Assembly (NCBI GenBank): GCA_030267965.1
Contig: BRYA01000203.1
Location: 1 to 14,856, forward strand
Length of the DNA: 14,856 bases
Source: Triparma columacea
Taxonomy: Eukaryota; Sar; Bolidophyceae; Parmales; Triparmaceae
Direction: 5' to 3'
The translations under genes and the position numbers were made by a program. Shown here piece by piece: positions 1 to 14,832 of this stretch. Every line of letters begins with the position of its first letter. Positions within the stretch are counted from its first letter, which is position 1. The notes under the pieces were generated by a model. It did not search any database. It worked only from the letters and a program-made list of their open reading frames with translations, and was not told the DNA's origin.

Positions 1-24
1 AACCCTAACCCTAACCATAACCCT
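1..24. repeat. Telomere terminal repeats (TTAGGG type, C-strand)
   Basis: Four hexamers in phase: AACCCT, AACCCT, AACCAT, AACCCT; the third has a C to A change. The C-rich strand reads 5' to 3' into the sequence, the orientation expected at a left chromosome end. The canonical array is short, so it is either trimmed in assembly or the innermost edge of a longer telomere. Confidence 0.9.
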
Positions 25-25
25 T

Positions 26-245
26 ACACCCTTTACACCCTTTACACCCTTTACACCCTTTACACCCTTTACACCCTTTACACCCTTTACACCCTTTACA
101 CCCTTTACACCCTTCACACCCTTCACACCCTTCACACCCTTCACACCCTTCACACCCTTCACACCCTTCACACCCCTTACACCCCTTACACCCTTCACAC
201 CTTTCACACCCTTCACACCCTTCTTACCTTTCACACCCTTCACAC
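26..245. repeat. Telomere-adjacent 9-bp minisatellite
   Basis: Nine uninterrupted copies of ACACCCTTT (26-106) are followed by seven copies of the variant ACACCCTTC (107-169). The array then decays through length variants (ACACCCCTT, ACACCTTTC) and fades near 245. The unit keeps the CCCT core of the telomere hexamer but is not a telomere repeat. There is no G anywhere in the array. Confidence 0.93.
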
Positions 246-862
246 ACACTTTACTCTTACACACACTTTACCTTCACAAACATCATACCATCTTAACTTT
301 CTTTCTTCTACTCTCACTTCTCAACTCCTCACTCCTCTAAACAACTCACTCTTTTTTCTTTAATTCATTTCCATACACATCTATCACACTTCCACACATA
401 CTCTCACACACAATTTACCTTTACACACACTATCCCATCCTATACCCCTCTCTCTTTCACTCTCACTCCTTAACTCCTTTCACTTTCTACCTTCACTACA
501 CTCACCCTCTTTTAACTCATCTTCATAAACATCTACTATACTCACACACATCATCCAACTTTATACCTTTCCCTTTTTTACTCTCACTCCTTATTTTCTT
601 TCACTCCTCTTCAAAAACTACACTCACCCTTCCTTAATTATCTTCATACACACCTACTACACTTACACACATGATTCCACCTTACACTCTCCCCTTTTCT
701 ACCCTCCCTCCTTATCTCCTCTCTCTCTTTTCTACAAATCCACACTTCTCCCCTTTAATCCATCCCTATACGCTCCACTACACTTTCATTATACTCACAA
801 ACCACTATAACACTCCCACATTACTTAACATTCACCTAAAACACACTCAATAATCAAAATAA
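246..862. repeat. G-depleted subtelomeric region with degenerate repeats of about 121 bp
   Basis: This stretch is made of C, T and A; the only Gs before 863 are at 673 and 772. It carries about four degenerate tandem copies. A block like TACTCTCACTCC recurs near 309, 459, 579 and 700. A second block, TTAATTCATCTTCATACACA-like, recurs near 360, 512, 634 and 754. Spacings are about 150, 120 and 120 bp. I see no gene here. The short ATG reading frame at 671-853 is a product of the low-complexity composition. Confidence 0.8.
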
Positions 863-884: not shown

Positions 885-3800
885 CTACAAATGTTGCTGT
901 CTCTTTAGATACTCCCCCTCCTCATCTTCTATCGGTACGACGCTGCTTACTTTAGCATTCCCACCTGCTAACCCTATAATATCTCCACCATCAGCGCCAC
1001 CAACACTTGCTCTCCTAATACTTGCTCTCAAAGTACCTGCTAGACCACCCTCAGCTTCAGCATCAACACTTGCTCTCCTCACACTCTCTCTCTTTCTAGC
1101 ATCTCCATCTGCTGGAATGAACTCTACAGGTATCATAGCTTTCCTTACATCACTAAACCACTCTGGCTGCTCCACTTCCCATTTAGCCCAATTTAGCTCA
1201 ACCCATTTCTTAATTTCTCCTTCAATTGAAACCCAGTGATGCCTTGAGTTTCCAAACACTTTTATCTTTATTTCATCACTTTCCCCTTCAAGGAAGTATG
1301 CCATTGTAAAAGCCTTCGATCTTTTTGTACTCAAGAAAGTATGCCAATACTTTCTCACAATATTCGAAATGAAAACAGCAAAGAACATGGTAGTAAGTGG
1401 TATGAAATAGTTCATAATCAATGATGCAATATTAATTGCCTTTTCATCTACATAAGGTGTAGCTACATATATTGACACTGGGAGGCTTCCCATTGTCAAC
1501 ATAAGACCAAGCAACCAATATGCTCCCCCAACTTCGTTAGGATGTCTAAACTGCACCATTGAAGTGAAGTCTACAATGATCTTTACAATCACTCTGCAAA
1601 GTATACTAGTCACAATCTCTGCATTACTGCCTAATGGTAACCAATACCAGAAGTCTCCCCTCAATATCCTAACAAACAAATATAGACCAAGGTCAGCGCC
1701 AATGTAGAAAAAGGCCCAACTACCTCCAATTAACCCAAGAAGAACTATTGTTGTACATCTTATCAGAAGCATTCCTGCAGTGAACAGCAACATTGACACA
1801 AACACCACCATTCTCTTGCTTGCTTTTGCTGGTATATAACCATAAAAGTCTGGTGCAGATTCTCTTCCAGCAGGGTCTGTGTCCCAATCATAACTTATTG
1901 TTGCTGAGGCAAAGCCTGTTGTTATTGCTGACACTGCAAGTGAAAGCCATGCCGTAGTTTTAACATCTTTGTCACTGGTTGCAATAGCCATAAGTTGGAT
2001 AATCACTCCAGGAATTGCCTCAGCAAACATCTCGACAACTTTCATCATTGTCATTTCGAACATTGGGTTAAGTGCAGTTCCTACCTTTTGTTTTGCTCCA
2101 GTTGCTACCCTGTAGGCATCAACTGCAGGCTTGTATCCAATCAATATAGGGAACCACTCTCTCAGCACCTTCCTTGTCCCCAACTTTCTGTTTTGAATGA
2201 AAACAATAATCATCTGAAACCCAATTGACACGATCAAACTTGCCAAAGAAGCTTTGAAGTATCCATACTTCTCATCTTTTAAAAACATGTATGTCACATA
2301 TACATCAGTAAGCAAATCAGTCATGCTTGTGACAGCACCAAAGGTAACCCTTGCCTTCAAGCCAATCTTTGAGTTCTTAAATAGATCCACAGCAATTGTC
2401 TCAATCATTGGCCTAAGCCATTTGTACTCTCTCATTACTTCTTGTACTTCAGTGTATTGATGGGCCCACTCGTCTACAGCATGATTTGCTGTTAGCGTTG
2501 TCATTGTGATAACTTTCAGTGCACTCCCAATCTCCAAGCCTCTTGCTTCCTCCATACTCCCAACTTCTCCTTCATTTGTTGCTCGTCGCCTCAGCTTGTT
2601 CCTAATTATAGCGCACAACATTGTCCCAACAAACCTGTTTTGCTTCTCAAGCTCTTTCATTGCCCTATTGGCAGCAATAAACTCCTTTACTACCTCATCC
2701 TTACTAGCTCCAACTGGCATCTCCTTGACCCTTAACATCAACTGATCTCCAAACCTCTTGCCATCCTCTTCATTGGCTTCTGAGCTGCTTAAAAGGTTAT
2801 CAAAATAGCAAGCAGCGTCAGTTGCTATGCCCAGGTGCTTGATTACACTCTTTTTACTGGTAGCCTTTGAGATCTCTTTTCCCAGCTTCAGCCTTGTGAC
2901 AATATTTATCTTGGTCTCTTTTTTACCAACCCTGCAAAATCTTACTGCAAAATCTTCTCTTGCTAGAGACTGCAACCCTCTCTCTTTGATTGCTTCACTC
3001 ATGATAACAAGAGTCCTTTTATCTGCTCTATACAAAAGCATCTTTGAGACGAAGTTCACATTGAAGCTTTGCAACGTTGTTTTGATGCGCTCCTTTGCCT
3101 TGACCTCTAAATCAAAGTCGGTACCTGTATTTACAGATTCCCTCACTAAGCCCTTGGTCTGAAGCCTGTCAACATCCCAAAAGTAGGCAGCTGCTTCCTC
3201 AAACCCTGTTCTCAATGTAACTGAAATCATTCCCCAGCTCTTTCCTCCTCCTTCTGCACCAACAGTTGCTCTAATCATGTCAAACAGTGGTAAGAGTTTT
3301 GTGTCGCCCCTCACCTTGAGATCTTTCATCTTCTTGACAATCTCAATCCTCCTTGGCTTGTCAATCTCATTAGTCTTATCAAACTTTTGGCGCAATTTTG
3401 ATGCAGCAGTTAGGAACTTTGTACCCAACTTTTCAACAACTGCATTGGGTATGGAGCTGTGAAAATCTACTTGTGTTTGGTATGTAGCTCTTGTTTGTGG
3501 AACACCACCCAAAGGAGGTAAAGATTCAAACATCCAGATTGTGTGCACAGTGCCAACAACATGGCCAAACTTGACGGGGTGTTCTTTTGTCAAGTCATCT
3601 ATGCTCTGGGCATCAATCCACACAACATCTCTGTCGTCCATGGTTTCCCTTTTCCATGTCACCTTGGTTCTGAAGTCCCTGTAAGCAAATCCAGGAATGC
3701 CAAGATCTCTTGTGGAGAAGTAGTATAGTGAGTGATTGTTGATGTTCTTCACAGTCATGTCCACTATCCCCCTTTTTTTTAGTGATTTCATTGCATAGCG

Positions 3801-5655
3801 GCTGTTGATGTCTACAAACGCATATGCTGCGCATTCATAAACACTCGCATCTACTGTTGTGGTTGCTATTGCGACACCATGGGAATCTCCAACAATATGG
3901 GCGACACTCATCTCAACGTTACTGTCGGGGCTTTCGAGTTCATACGCCCCAGTTCCTTCCTTGCACTTTTTGTAGAATTCCTTTGCACTCCTGATAGCCT
4001 TTTCCTCCTCTTCTGTATAAGTTTGCTGCTCATTTTTTATAACTTTGGCAAGCAACTCTCGTGTAATTGAGTCCTTTTCGTCATCAGTTTTTGCAAACTT
4101 GTTCCTGATGTCAATTATCACCTTTGCATAATTAGATGACAAGTAGTTCATTACAAATGTTGGCACAGAACTCTTGATATCAACCCTGGAGGCAAATGTG
4201 ATGTGACACTGAGGGGTTCCCTTATCACTTGGTAGCGCTTCAAACAGCCATGTTGATGTTGCAGATGCAAGAACAGTCCCAGAGCTTAATGGGAAGTCGT
4301 TATCCAACAGGTTGGTGTCTTTGTACACTGTCCAACACTTCTTTTCTCCCTCCTCAAACTTCCACATACCAATTCTCCTCGACTCCCTATCAGATAATCC
4401 TCGTACCCCAAGGTTTTTCCTTTGTAAGTACAGCTGTGAGTGATCGTTCAGCTTTTTTGTTTTGAGCGCCTTGTACTCCTTTCCAAGCTTGGACTGTTCC
4501 TCCCTTGAATCCTTGATGAACTCGTATGCAACGCACTCTGAAAGTGTAGCATCGACAACCGTTTCGCAAAATCCGACGCCTAGAGACTCTCCCTCAAGAT
4601 GGACAAACTTCAACTGCACCCTGGGATCTGGACTCTTCAAGTTTTTGAATTTTTTGCTTGCCTTGCAACTCATGTAGAACTCCTTGCCCTCCTTGATTGC
4701 CCCCTCCTCCTCATCGGTGTAATTTTGTGGCTCGTTCTTTATTATATTTGCGAGGGCCATGAGTGCCTCCTTGTCAATCTCGTCGTTGTTCATGATTTTC
4801 GGTTGATCTTTCGGCACACTGTCCTGGACAGTGCCTCGGGATGTGGTCAGCCCCTCCTCTCCACCTCCATCAGTCTCAACATGCCCGATCTTGATGTCGT
4901 CGTCCATGTCGCGTACGATATCCTCTTCTTCGTCGAGCCCCCCGTTGCCGTTATCTTCAGTAACAATTCGCTCGTAGTCCTCTGAGTCTGTTGAAGAAGA
5001 AGCCTTTGTAAGGGCTGCAGTACCAATCTCTTCTGCAGCAGCCCTGAGCGCATTGTTCTCCGTCATCAACTTGTCGTTGAGATCTTTGAGGTTCTTAATT
5101 TCAATGAGGTATTCGGCGGTGACCCTTACCGCGGATGCCTTTAGTTCGGCAATTTCTATCCCTCGAGCATTGACGAGGTTCACTAATCTTTCGATTTCCT
5201 CCTCCGTCTTTGCAACGGTTACAAAGCTGTCAGGATTCATTGGTACGGTCGAAGCGGCGGTCGTGCGGCCGAGGGACGGCGGCACGGCACTAAAGTTATT
5301 GCTGTCCGCAACCAGACCGACAGCGTCCTCGTGACCATTTTCAGAGTCTGTGGTAATGGCGATTATGGTGTTTGTCAGTCAAAATAAAAAAGATTTCCAC
5401 ACGTGCTCCAACATATCGTCCTCGTTCCCCTGTAGAATATCAAGGGTCTCCGCCCCTACAACCCCCTAACATGAACTCACCTTGTCCAGCGTCCCCACGA
5501 AGTCTTTCAATTGCAGAAGACGGAGTAACTTGCCTCTCATGGCCAAGATCGGGTTCTGAAAGGCAGCTATCGGACATCGGGGCGTCAACCTGAAGTACAT
5601 GAGTCTCTGTCGCAAGGCCCTCTCTCCCTCCTCGGGATTCACTTTCCGTGTCCAT
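885..5655 (-). CDS. START-like lipid-binding repeats fused to XKR-like membrane domain (1545 aa)
   Basis: Two exons: 5655-5481 and 5347-885. The start ATG (5653-5655) has G at +4 and an in-frame TGA 9 bases upstream; the stop is TAG at 885-887. Residues 1-105 look disordered; 106-165 form a coiled coil; about 247-484 and 485-724 are two homologous START-like (Bet v1/START fold) repeats, each opening with IKNExQ-YT-EEE-AI-KEFY--CK; about 724-930 looks like a third, divergent copy. About nine membrane segments follow at 1055-1395. These contain TDLLTDVYVTYMFL (about 1068), EAIPGVIIQL (about 1168) and a SAITTGFASATISY segment (about 1198), which match the order and character of XK-related scramblase signatures. 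The basic tail has two RRASV motifs (1482, 1503). Inference: a membrane-anchored lipid sensor, transfer protein or scramblase. START and XKR assignments are by eye; the XKR one is the less certain. Confidence 0.82.
5348..5480 (-). other. Intron of the START-XKR gene (133 bp)
   Basis: Donor AAG|GTGAGT at 5480 and acceptor CCACAG at 5348, phase 1. Splicing joins an open ATG-started exon exactly into the frame of the long exon and removes an in-frame TGA at 5379-5381. This explains why the long open frame has no ATG until residue 95 of the spliced protein. Confidence 0.8.
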
Positions 5656-6321: not shown

Positions 6322-6333
6322 AACCCTAACCCT
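6322..6333. repeat. Interstitial telomere dimer 1
   Basis: AACCCTAACCCT, two perfect telomere hexamers, about 6.3 kb from the chromosome end and in the same orientation as the terminal repeats. Confidence 0.85.
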
Positions 6334-6339
6334 ATTTTT

Positions 6340-6427: not shown

Positions 6428-6440
6428 AAACCCTAACCCT
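6428..6440. repeat. Interstitial telomere dimer 2 / telo-box
   Basis: AAACCCTAACCCT, a second telomere dimer 107 bp from the first and in the same orientation. Its first nine bases equal the plant telo-box AAACCCTAA. It lies in the presumed 3' flank of the leftward channel gene, so a promoter role for that gene is unlikely. Confidence 0.8.
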
Positions 6441-6543: not shown

Positions 6544-9500
6544 CTAGCCCGGTGTTTGCTTCTGAAATATCATGGTCCTGTCGGCCGTGTCCTCTAGATT
6601 GGATCTATACCTGCTCATCTTGGTCGCCTCGTCGAGAAGTTCCATGACTTTGCTCTGGACCCTCTCGAGTGCCTCCATTTGTTCCTTCCTTTCGCTGACG
6701 TTGTGGGCCGTAAACATTGCGCTGTTGGGTGGCATTCCATCTCCAATTTTGTCGATGTTGCCGTAGAGGAAGCTGACTTCATTCTTCAGCACCTTGAGTC
6801 TCGCTATAAGGAAGTCGTTGATGAAGGACTTTACCCTGATCTCTCTTATTATGCTATTTAGCTTTTCCACTAAGCCGGAGATCATCGTCTTGGACATTTC
6901 GAGCTGCCTCCCGGGGTCCTCCTTGAACTCGTCGAAACTCAGCCTGCTCTTCCTTGCCCTCCTCACACTTTCTTCGTCCTCCTCGTCATCGGAACCCGAG
7001 CCACCCGAGCTACTGCCGCTTTCGTCATCGTCGCTTTCTTCTTCTCCTTCTATGTCCCCCCTGGCTTGCTTGATGGCCGCCTTCAGGGCGCTGACGTCCG
7101 TTGCTTTCACCCCCTCGGTCCCTGCAATCGACTGGGCAATGATGGAGCTTAGACTTTGAGCGATCCTCTCGTCCATCTCGTCGGCGGAGGAGGACAACTC
7201 TTCGTCGTCCTCGTCCTCGTAATTTCTCTTTGTGGATTTCCTCTTTGTCCTAGTGGTGGACTTCCTTGCAGAGCTCCTCGTTCGTCTTGAACCTCTTGCC
7301 ATGGTCTGCCTCGACATCCGCGTTAGAGCCTTTCCTGTTTTCATCGAGTTGTCTACGATCCTCTCTTCCATACTCCTAAGCCTCCTTTCAATGTTTTGTA
7401 GCACCTTGCCGATATTCGACTCTGACTCCTGCTGCTGGTCGATGACGTCCTTCAATTTTAGGGTCTTCAAGCTCTTCTTTTGGAGGGCCCAGTCTTTCGC
7501 CTCGCCCTTGTACTTTTCCATGATGATCTCCTCAAGAACCTTCCTCTCGTCGTCAAAGTCCGTAACGACCTCGTCGAAGTCGTGCCTCGAGAGTACAGTC
7601 AACTCGCAGAATGATTTCGCCCTGACGTTGCAGGTCCTCGGGGTGTTTAGGACCAGGCAGATCTCCCCGAAGTATTCACCTGCCAAAAGCTCCTTGACGA
7701 CCTTTTCCTTCTTTACCTGCTTGCTGATCATGCTCGCCCTACTCTCGAGGTTGAGTCCGCTATTCATCGCTTCTGCCTTCTTCTTCTCCTCCTCCTCCTC
7801 TTCCTCCTTCTTCTTCTTGGCTGCTTCCGCCCCCCCCTTGCCGCTAATGCTCAAGCTCCTCATTCCGCCCTTGGGGCTCATAGCTGCCCTAATGCTCTCT
7901 GATGCCATGCCGATACCCTGTTGCATGTCGCTAAGTCTAAAGGTTTTCAGCCTCATCTTTTGCACTGCCTTGGGGTCCTGACCGGTGTAAGTCTTTCTCT
8001 GCTCGGGCAAATTCGTGTCGGGGTCCACCTTCAGTGGGGCGACCCCAGCCTCCTTATCTCTGGCAGCCTTGAGGTTCCTCTGCTGAAGGAAGTCCATGAA
8101 GTTATCCTTCATGCCCTTTAAGGCGTCGACGCTGCTCCTTCTCCTGCCCATGTCCCTCCTCCTCTTCGGCTTATTAGCCTCCTCCTTCTTGACTGGGTTG
8201 ATTATGTCTGTAATGGTCACCTCGCAGATTCCCTTGGAAATTAGGAACATCTCGGCCCCGGGGGCCCCCTTGTGAACGATATAGTCAGCGGGGAGAAAAA
8301 TCTCGCTCTTGAGTCTCATGACAAGCTCCTGGACGACTTCCGGGCTACACTGTCTCAGGAAGGGCACTGAGAGGATCAGATTGGTTCTCAGGTAGAGGTA
8401 GACCTCCGAGCTGCGATGGGGGGGAGAGGGGGGGGGGGATGCGTTGCGTTGCGTTGCGTTGCATTGCGGGTCCATCATTAGTTGATTATCTGCATGTGTA
8501 TTTGACCTGTCTGCTTGCGTAGCAGATCCTCTTTCCCTCACCTTAGCTGCTTCGAGAGCTCAGGGATAAAATACGTGATACTTCCGTCTAAAGTCCTATA
8601 CTCCTTCCATATGTGGTCGTAGTACATGAGGATACGCTTCTTGAGGTTCTGGGGGAGCTCAAGGTGGTTCATGCTCTCGAAGAGAAGCTCCATCTTCCTC
8701 TGGTACGCGGTCTGGTTGGCGGTATAGTTGGCAATGTACATGGACACGTTACCGTAGATGATAGCAATAATCACCGAACCGAATAAGATGATGATTGTGG
8801 CAAACCACTTCTCTGATATGTCCCTCGGGCCTATACTCTCTCCCATAATGAGGAGCATACTGAAATAGTAGGCGGTGGTGTAACTTATCGCGTTGGCCTG
8901 TCCAGAGCAGCTGCCGTAGAGGTCACCATCAAGAAAGCAGTCGTAGTCTAGCGTTGGCGCGGTGTACTGCTCCACAAGATCGTTGACGTACGTCTCGTTA
9001 AGCCCGAGTACCCTCTCCTCGGGGGGCTTGAGCCTGTTGGCGAGCGTCACTCTACCGGCTTCGTATTCCGATACAGAAAGCCTATCTGTGTAGTAGAAGT
9101 CCCTGAAACCGAGGCAAACCTCCTCGGGAGGGGACGCCATCAACCTTATCTGCACCTCGTAATTTTCGGGATAATCGCACTCTTGCAGGTCCATCCACGT
9201 TGGATTAGGGTTGCCGGGATCGGGAAGCTCATTCCCGAGCACCATCATGAAGACGCACGCGATATAGTGCACGAGGACCATCATCCCGAAGATTAGGTAA
9301 ACCATCCTGATCAAGTTGGCGTTCCTGCTGTACTGGAACCACCACATGAGCTCGGGCCTGATATGAGCCATCTTGAAGACCTTTAAAAGCCTGCGATGGG
9401 CGAGAAGGGTTGGATTGCGTCGGTAGGTTAGAACCGTCGCATTTATGGTTGAGGGGGGGGGGGGGTTAGAGGGCAAATAACATTCTCACCTCATGATTTT

Positions 9501-12727: not shown

Positions 12728-14832
12728 TTATTCCCCCGTAGCCCCCTCCGGCTTCTCAAGCTTCCTGAGCCCCTTGCCCCTGAACCTCGTGGTCATCTCG
12801 TGCGCCCTCGGGATGATCTCTTGGGATATGAAGTGGTCTATTCTGATCTCCACTACATTGTAAGGGTCTGGCCTCATCTGGCACCCCATGGCCGCGTTGG
12901 CCTCTACAAACTCTGCAAAGACCATCTCGCTGTCCCCTACATCCTCGCTCCTCTCGTCTTCATCGAGCGCCTCCTCCTCCTGCTGGACGTAGGCGAAGAG
13001 GACCTTGACAGACCTCTCGCTCATTAAAGGCCCGATCATCTTGAAATCCCTGCAGAAGCTCACGAGCTCTTTGTTGTTCATCGTATCGTTGAACATGGCG
13101 GCATCGCCGTCGTCGTCGTCCGCTGCAAACACCTTGTAAATTATCTTCATGTTGTGCTTGTGCTTGGCGAAGACGTCCTTGACCCTGTCCCCTGCGATCC
13201 TCTCCCTGAAGACGTCCGTATCTACGCTGCAGGCGTTGGGAAGGACCTCCTCGTCCAAGAGCTTCTGGAGCCTCTGCGCGGGCGTGCCCTTCGTGAACCT
13301 ATAGACCGCAAGGCGGGCGAGGGACTCAACGAACTCAGTAGGCTCCAGCTCACCGTCGTCAGATTGCAGTCGATCCTTGCCCTCCAAACTGTAGTCTATG
13401 TTGCAGCACTGGAAAATAAGGTCCACCCTAACACTTGGCATGGCCTTCCTGTCCTTCTGGAGCTTGCAGTCCTTTACGAACTTCCAGAATTCTGAGTGGT
13501 CCATGCTATCCGCAGGACCTCCATCTCCCGCCGCGGCGTAGAACTGGAAGATCCTCTTGAGGTCCCTGATTCTCGTTTTCAAAATTCTTTTCATCTCAGC
13601 GCACTGGAACGGGCCGCACCGGGTTATAGGTTGAGGGTGATGGGTAAGGATTAGGGTTAGAGGGTAAATAATCACATTGAGGCAAGGTGTCCTTCTTCCT
13701 TCCTTCGGGTTAGTCTTCCTATGTCTGCCTCCGATTCTTCTCACCTGCTCGTCCCTAACCTCCTCGCTGAGGATTCCCAGCCTCTTGAATTCGTTCGCAA
13801 ACTGTATCTTCTCCACCGTCGTGTATGTCCCGTCGTCGATGTCCTCCTCTGTGCGGAGGCGCCTGGACAGGATGGTGGTGCAGAGCGACTGCCAGACGTA
13901 GTATACGCTGTCGTGGATGTGGCAGCGGAACCTCTGGCGGTCCTCTACGCACTCAACGTACTCGTCGATCACTAGGCCGGCCGTCCTCTTGGCTTCCATG
14001 TGATGGTTCTTGACGTCCTTGGCGCACTTCTTGAGGCCCTCATGGCTCATGTACTGGTCGACCCAGATCCGAACGGTGATTTTGCCGTCGCCGATTTTCC
14101 TCAAGGCCGATCCGTCTGCGTAGGCGAGCACCTCGTTGAGTCCCTCGGTGATCTTCTCCCAACCTTGCAAGAATTTTTCTTCAAAGGCTGCCAGGAACTT
14201 GTCCTTGAAGCCTTCCCAAAGGTCCTGGGTCTTGAAATGGTGCGCGAAGAGCTCCGACATAAGGGCGGCGCACTTCTGTTCCGAGGTATCCATAACGTGC
14301 ACCCTCATTCCCATGTACTTGGACATGACGTGGACAATTATGCCGGACTCCTTCTCCCTAGCAGCCAGCCTCCTCATTCTCTCCGCCTTGGCAGCGATTT
14401 CTTCAGGTGTCGGAGGGGGCTCCTTGCCGGAAATGTGCTTCTGCTCGACGTACCGGCCGACTACTGGGTTCATTGTAGGCAGATAATTGGCGACCGCTTG
14501 GCACGTTGGAACTTCAGGGTTCTCCTCGTAGTAGTTATCGCAGGTGCGTTCGGGGACAGTGATCTCCGGGAACTCCGGCTGCTCGTTGACCTTTGAAATC
14601 GACCGCAGGATGGAGAGCCAGTTCTTGCCATCCTTCATGTCGTCGTGCGTCTTCCAGGGCCTTGCTCCCTCAGGGACCTTGAGCGATCCCTCGGGACTAT
14701 TGTCTATCCAGTCTTGGCGTATCAAGTTGTTCGCCCACCTACGAGTGCGGTTACCAGGCCTAGTTTCGAAGGGGTAAAAAGCGTGCGTGAACTCCTTCGA
14801 CGCGAGCTTTCCGGGAATAAAGTCCCGAATAG
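12728..14832 (-). CDS. Protein with duplicated EF-hand-like modules, 5' end outside window
   Basis: Two visible exons: 14832-13745 and 13603-12728 (stop TAA), giving 653 residues plus a split first codon. The frame is open to the acceptor at 14833, with no ATG before it, so at least one further 5' exon lies beyond the edge. The N-terminal 362 visible residues are mostly helical, with a charged PPPTPEEIAAKAERMRRL stretch. The last exon holds two homologous modules (about 376-465 and 513-605). Each has an IF-FYAA or VFAADD loop segment, an acidic EL/EF stretch and an EFVE helix; they read as divergent EF-hand pairs with insertions in the loops. Canonical 12-residue loops are not intact, so Ca2+ binding is uncertain. 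No precise family name or role can be given. Confidence 0.8.
13604..13744 (-). other. Intron of the EF-hand-like gene (141 bp, stop-free in frame)
   Basis: Donor GAGCAG|GTGAGA, acceptor CGTTCCAG, phase 0. The length is a multiple of three and there is no in-frame stop, so retention would insert 47 residues. On the + strand it contains a degenerate telomere-like run at 13621-13667, including TTAGGGTTAGAGGG. Confidence 0.82.

Follow-up and report, generated by a model that had tools for sequence, protein, structure and literature searches.

Why should one strand of a chromosome end go almost without guanine for hundreds of bases, and what keeps the base out? The question is raised by the start of a contig of Triparma columacea, analysed here as a window of 14,856 bp (contig BRYA01000203.1, C201 in the assembly that we searched). 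The first-pass annotation had reported only two Gs in positions 1 to 862 of the + strand, and a direct count confirms this: the first Gs stand at 673, 772, and 863, followed by 872, 878, and 893, and the 862 positions comprise 226 A, 351 C, 283 T, and 2 G.

Layout and composition of the window end

The features of this end are as follows.

1 to 24, + strand: C-strand of a TTAGGG-type telomere repeat (CCCTAA units and variants), read from the sequence at the contig start
20 to 245, + strand: G-free 9-bp array, unit TTTACACCC / TTCACACCC (Tandem Repeats Finder, 25.2 copies, 93% matches)
246 to 422, + strand: degenerate G-free DNA, read from the sequence
423 to 760, + strand: diverged 121-bp tandem repeat with G only at 673 (Tandem Repeats Finder, two overlapping rows, 2.5 copies, 74 to 75% matches)
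761 to 862, + strand: gene-proximal stretch of the G-poor zone, its single G at 772, homologous to the corresponding stretch of other ends (multiple alignment of 31 ends)
885 to 5285, − strand: open reading frame of a subtelomeric gene, 1466 amino acids (listed from GTG), stop codon at 885 to 887, oriented towards the telomere

At the start of other contigs, the run of CCCTAA units reaches about a dozen. It had been proposed that simple repeat reaches only to ~245 and that the rest is degenerate; the array does end at 245, but the remainder is not free of repeats, given the 121-bp tandem repeat at ~75% matches. With respect to telomere-repeat units beyond the telomere, neither of the units reported by Tandem Repeats Finder in the zone (9 bp and 121 bp) is by inspection a TTAGGG variant, and the window gave no Rfam match at gathering thresholds.

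Outside the simple repeat, positions 246 to 862 hold 168 A, 230 C, 217 T, and 2 G. Against an interior G fraction of 0.178, the log10 probability of at most 2 Gs in 617 bases is −48.7. This interior control (98,446 bases, with longest G-free and longest C-free runs of 52 each) consists of the window from 1501 and of 19 fetched ends, each taken from a point 600 bp into the gene, and is largely coding sequence of the same family; in the window from 1501 the longest G-free run is 50. GC skew is −1.0 over positions 1 to 600, polarised to the telomere and next to telomere repeats, and has equal polarity at other fetched ends with a zone. The C-strand, whose 5′ end lies at the telomere, is almost G-free in the zone, and the G-rich strand and any telomere-ward read-through RNA are almost C-free. 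The direction of the gene, the polarity of the C-strand, and the lack of self G:C pairing can all be seen in the sequence.

The C-terminal half of the gene is weakly XK-related-like (Pfam PF09815, E = 1.9e-4, 21 bits, under the gathering score of 24.8). It belongs to a large, telomere-ward family with an XK-like C terminus, with diverged copies at many ends, among them 888 to 5285 of the window and places on at least 31 further contigs; the copy on C376 has several internal stops. Metagenome relatives of the family gene are present in a protein collection, while in IMG/VR a peptide pattern had four matching stretches, of which none could be confirmed as related to it. Elsewhere in the window, short interstitial CCCTAA or TTAGGG pieces occur at 6322 to 6334, 6431 to 6440, and 13651 to 13660. 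At 8440 to 8468, a pentanucleotide TGCGT repeat, perhaps intronic, adjoins a poly-G tract. It lies close to where two coding pieces meet in an ion-channel-like gene that has a cyclic-nucleotide-binding domain.

Recurrence across chromosome ends

The assembly searched comprises 37.85 Mb in 789 contigs, an extent that differs from that of the published T. columacea assembly (43.0 Mb in 1,858 scaffolds; PMC10328945). A 22-bp pattern of two and a half units of the 9-mer array had 356 overlapping genome matches, which fall on at least 20 contigs among the matches listed. We fetched 20 ends with the 9-mer pattern and 20 with the gene family, which together with the window made 41 sequences; the sample is biased to such ends because each was chosen for holding one or the other. 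The longest G-free run was at least 300 bp in 29 of the 41, at least 200 bp in 35, and at least 100 bp in 39, with a maximum of 1,080 bp. Runs of at least 200 bp were present in all 21 sequences of the 9-mer set including the window (at least 300 bp in 19), in 14 of the 20 ends picked for the gene alone (at least 300 bp in 10), and, counting the window, in 29 of the 30 ends that carry telomere or 9-mer arrays (at least 300 bp in 26).

The first-pass annotation held that the asymmetry runs well beyond the telomere repeats and stops close to the gene, and this pattern was recovered at most fetched ends. Ordinary G content at other ends, which would have spoken against it, was in general not what we found, and some zones are short or interrupted. 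G-bearing DNA lies outside the array at L031 (~620 bp), L064 (~300 bp), and L058 (~70 bp), and L053 contains a stretch of N and ordinary DNA. Eleven further loci on new contigs had longest G-free runs of 413, 395, 290, 269, 255, 251, 211, 146, 118, 77, and 41 bp; the last of these (L074) is surrounded by ordinary sequence, and several of the other ten are interrupted by motifs. Three additional loci (L073, L077, and L080) repeat contigs already counted and stand outside the eleven.

Zones measure ~0.2 to 1.8 kb including arrays, are noncoding, and lie between the telomere and the 3′ end of the subtelomeric gene family. That family adjoins the zone, with its matches pointing to the telomere, in 40 of the 41 end sequences, half of which were fetched for the gene, and in 20 of the 21 in the 9-mer set including the window; at L040 only a C-terminal piece of the family gene is present. 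The one end without it, L039, has a zone that is homologous to the others (67 to 83% identity) and gives way abruptly to ordinary DNA near position 1000, with G counts per 100 bases of 0, 2, 1, 16, and 17 from position 701; the gene bordering this zone had no Pfam match at E 0.01. Judging from such alignments, the guanine-poor zones at different ends are homologous. The contig C340 (101,402 bp) carries subtelomeric sequence at both ends, with L081 at one end and a family gene at 98,785 to 100,842, and is the only two-ended contig among the loci listed; it is either a small complete chromosome or a misassembly.

Recurrence also bears on whether the zone is an artefact of Illumina assembly or library construction, which we regard as very improbable. 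It recurs with different sequences on dozens of contigs, runs on into genes, and does not occur in the interior sample, and we know of no artefact that strips one base from one strand. What an artefact would have in its favour is that contigs often start inside the 9-mer array, so that ends are truncated or collapsed, and that the group's published assemblies, except that of T. laevis f. inornata, are described as Illumina assemblies made with Platanus (PMC10328945).

Substitution in paralogous zones

The zones might have inherited their composition, having grown from telomere-like or 9-bp/121-bp G-free repeats that spread between ends, so that the common ancestor was itself G-free. Their homology and their tandem repeats accord with such an origin, as does a fitted root composition that is nearly G-free in most models. 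However, even the closest pairs differ by ~15%, and others by more, with C/T, A/C, and A/T differences plentiful and hardly any that involve G. Across 19 disjoint paralogue pairs, which share 84.6% identity over 8,863 aligned columns, we counted 697 C/T, 322 A/T, 279 A/C, 33 A/G, 27 G/T, and 11 C/G mismatches and only 15 G/G matches. In the adjoining coding sequence, 20 pairs gave 500 C/T and 278 A/G differences. An unrestricted model put the total rate of G loss at 13.5 (5.7 to A, 5.7 to T, and 2.0 to C) and the total loss of each of A, C, and T at 0.7 to 1.0.

We compared substitution models on three alignments. The proximal-zone and coding-end alignments hold 31 ends, 9 of the 40 copies having been dropped for a short, N-bearing, or non-homologous flank; the distal set holds 22 of the 40 copies and L039, with 14 Gs in 7,957 bases and a tree length of 3.7. 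Under the null, G-related rates are the strand complements of the others. The remaining models add one selection coefficient (S), excess G loss (M), excess G-to-A change only (T), or free loss and gain factors (F), and all have a free root composition. They assume strand-symmetric background mutation and a single tree; ends exchange sequence, so that the trees are approximate. The log-likelihoods were as follows.

Proximal zone (31 ends, 365 columns): null −5330.0, S −5241.8, M −5242.5, T −5262.3, F −5236.0
Distal zone (23 ends, 428 columns): null −4164.6, S −4055.5, M −4051.8, T −4053.7, F −4051.7
Coding end (31 ends, 324 columns): null −3837.45, S −3837.44, M −3833.8, T −3829.0, F −3831.8

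A strand-symmetric model that lets the zone start from a G-free seed loses by 88 ± 13 log units in the proximal zone and by 109 to 113 ± 15 in the distal zone. Expansion from such a seed, one of the causes suggested at first, is thereby rejected as the sole cause, and inheritance is improbable as the main explanation, while repeat expansion and homology do shape the zone. The aligned paralogues show that newly arising Gs were removed during divergence, the zone being not merely a G-free relic. They likewise show that the exclusion continues in the noncoding zone, where a process particular to chromosome ends seems to act, and that it is at most weak in the adjacent coding sequence. This second result carries a caveat on root composition, since the freedom of the coding end from exclusion rests on letting the root vary: with a free root, the selection term in the coding alignment was 0.04 for a gain of 0.01 log units, whereas with a stationary root it was 0.72, an improvement of 13.9 log units on the null; the corresponding values for the proximal zone are 3.1 and 193. 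The M, T, and F fits all put G loss at the coding end below expectation.

What removes the Gs could be strand-specific hypermutation, in which cytosines of the G-rich strand are damaged while single-stranded (during 5′ resection, in R-loops, or before C-strand fill-in), Gs of the C-strand are lost ~20 to 100 times faster than expected, and bypass of abasic sites gives A, T, and C. Excess loss of + strand G, which is to say of 3′-strand cytosine, is present in the zone, and a model of excess loss fits much as selection does (S minus M, +0.8 ± 8.3 log units proximally and −3.7 ± 2.4 distally). It thus has a slight edge in the distal zone, which shows the strongest effect, and this counts against selection. 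The distal free model combines near-normal G gain with ~98-fold loss, and its proximal counterpart beats both pure forms, S and M, by ~6 log units. Selection accounts for the excess equally well, with a scaled coefficient of ~2.7 to 4.5. The initial suggestions of selection for a C-free minus strand and of strand-biased mutation therefore both survive; the substitution data fit them equally and single out neither.

Changes of 20- to 100-fold far exceed ordinary strand asymmetry, which counts against a mutational cause. Nor was the excess loss detected under a free root in the coding sequence beside the zone, although that sequence lies 230 to 1,853 bp from the contig end. In its plain form, as G-to-A deamination, hypermutation was tried and set aside, being worse than unspecific loss by 19.7 ± 12.9 log units in the proximal zone and equal to it in the distal zone (1.9 ± 2.1). 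In yeast reporter strains, strand-coordinated cytosine deamination in subtelomeric single-stranded DNA has been described (PMC3521656), in line with a mutational cause.

The idea that L059, which has no telomere repeats in front, might be regaining G was not borne out, since among 212 mismatches the focal copy had G at 10 and its relatives at 11. For decay of G in G-bearing DNA distal to the zone (L031, L071, L076, and L064), the longest useful alignment was only 289 bp, with 11 A/G and 18 C/T differences.

Where guanine persists, and comparison with known systems

The asymmetry had been said to stop at the gene. This is approximately right, but in pooled copies G rises gradually towards and into the gene. 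Beyond 300 bp from the stop codon, pooled G is 0.0 to 0.4% (0.8% in the bin at 450 to 500 bp); it reaches 0.5 to 1.0% at 150 to 300 bp, 1.5% at 100 to 150 bp, 2.9% at 50 to 100 bp, and 7.8% at 0 to 50 bp, then 6.5 to 11% in the last 200 bp of coding sequence and 14 to 18% at 450 to 600 bp inside the gene. The gradient was calculated from 34 of the 40 copies with two motifs masked (L053, L031, L058, L064, L062, and L057 left out). G is therefore lowest farthest from the gene, as hypermutation would have it.

Coding composition by the stop showed no correlation with distance from the contig end over 230 to 1,853 bp (Spearman −0.12, P = 0.54, 29 ends), nor did G in the near flank (0.15, P = 0.47, 26 ends). 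In a regression on the 27 array-bearing ends, with motifs and arrays masked and L059 left out in addition to the gradient omissions, the effect of distance from the stop was clear (−0.98, 95% interval −1.55 to −0.64) and that of distance from the end weak (+0.87, 95% interval −0.15 to 1.51), in the direction of more G farther from the end at a fixed distance from the stop. Both the pooled gradient and this tendency suit a telomere-centred process and so speak against selection. Within the gene, the last 75 codons are poor in synonymous C on the coding strand (NNC/NNY of 0.17, 0.08, and 0.09, compared with 0.14 to 0.54, mostly near 0.3 to 0.4, elsewhere), another point against selection, the gene copies not being independent.

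The rare Gs of the zone are located in part in two words, copies of which include the following.

L038, 130 to 156; L040, 301 to 327; L056, 1168 to 1194; and others: copies of AGATCAAAAAGTAACGGTTATCGTATC
L055, 467 to 485; L060, 472 to 490; L074, 1501 to 1519; and a variant in L064 near 356 to 374: copies of CGGCCGGGTTACCCTGTCT

The first, a 27-bp motif, has 22 genomic matches at up to 3 mismatches, of which 15 are exact and so keep all five Gs; 16 of the 22 lie no more than 1.2 kb from the start of a contig, and a further two are at most 110 bp from a known contig end. Its flanks differ between copies, it often stands between 9-mer-like arrays and the degenerate zone, and it is a possible protein-binding or recombination junction site. 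In five degenerate copies from fetched loci, 10 of 25 G positions were changed, as were 7 of 110 others; the copy in L042 had lost 5 of 5 Gs with 0 of 22 other positions changed, and that in L053 differed at 1 G and 4 others. The second word has 12 exact copies, several at subtelomeric junctions and one (C294) in ordinary DNA, and resembles the terminus of a segment that moves or is exchanged. In addition, one G column in the 31-end alignment is common to 11 of the 26 ends with a base there. The persistence of such Gs favours function or recent spread of the words and counts against indiscriminate, very fast loss. With these points on both sides, we consider hypermutation quite possible, if second in rank.

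Weak, strand-specific purifying selection for a C-free telomere-ward strand is in our judgment the most likely cause, at a little short of an even chance. It is narrowly favoured because the gene shows little or no exclusion however far it lies from the end, because the replacement of G is unspecific, and because motifs keep their Gs; the stationary-root result for the coding end is what makes the gap between selection and mutation small. Neither strand of such DNA can pair with itself through G:C, so that the G-rich 3′ strand and a read-through transcript would stay unfolded. The G-rich 3′ strand, where exposed at the end, would pair only with the C-strand, as would a putative TERRA-like transcript running towards the telomere, and unfolded strands of this kind could favour C-strand fill-in, strand invasion, or RNA:DNA hybrids at the end. 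Short conserved G-bearing words, such as the 27-bp motif found at many ends, would be the exceptions expected if they are binding or junction sites. Here we infer transcription of the zone, exposure of its single strand, and the effects on fitness. More speculatively, and less likely than not, the zone may represent a dedicated chromosome-end property of this lineage. At most or all ends, selection or a strand-directed mutator specific to ends would keep the telomere-ward strand C-free over ~1 kb, with a single telomere-ward gene family as its boundary and conserved G-bearing motifs as the only breaks. This would be in effect a second telomere domain of degenerate sequence, defined by base exclusion and not by its repeats.

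A literature search on Triparma telomeres and on guanine-free subtelomeric or telomeric DNA found no published account. Related asymmetries are described in other systems. Human distal subtelomeres downstream of TERRA promoters have variable GC skew that is linked to RNA:DNA hybrids (PMC5286223), and the Triparma zone resembles them in the presence of strand asymmetry by the telomere and in the G-richness of the telomere-ward strand. However, the human skew, as reported there, is variable and found at part of the ends, whereas in Triparma G is near-absent over hundreds of bases at most fetched ends and its exclusion continued during divergence. The chromosome extremities of Encephalitozoon cuniculi also display GC skew, which the authors credit to strand effects of replication or transcription (PMC4704409); that skew spans the rDNA region and, in the portion of the account drawn on here, is not described as exclusion of one base, unlike the Triparma zone.

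Degenerate and variant telomere repeats inward of the telomere (PMC9498494) likewise extend C-strand character past the perfect repeats, but most of the Triparma zone is not recognisable telomere repeat, consisting instead of 9-bp, 121-bp, and unrelated degenerate sequence. Closest to a mutational reading is subtelomeric hypermutation in yeast (PMC3521656), a strand-specific end process that consumes cytosines of the 3′ strand, although that case, as presented, was a laboratory induction in strains whose single-stranded ends are long, and involves no standing G-free zone. The new elements in Triparma are the extent of the zone and the active exclusion that maintains it. As a rule, the strand asymmetry seen near telomeres is a mild skew, and its cause is inseparable from its history. 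Dozens of paralogous ends in one genome, with one base all but barred from one strand and free exchange among the other three, amount to a natural experiment, and they make it testable whether end asymmetry comes from mutation of exposed single strands or from selection for unfolded, hybrid-forming strands.
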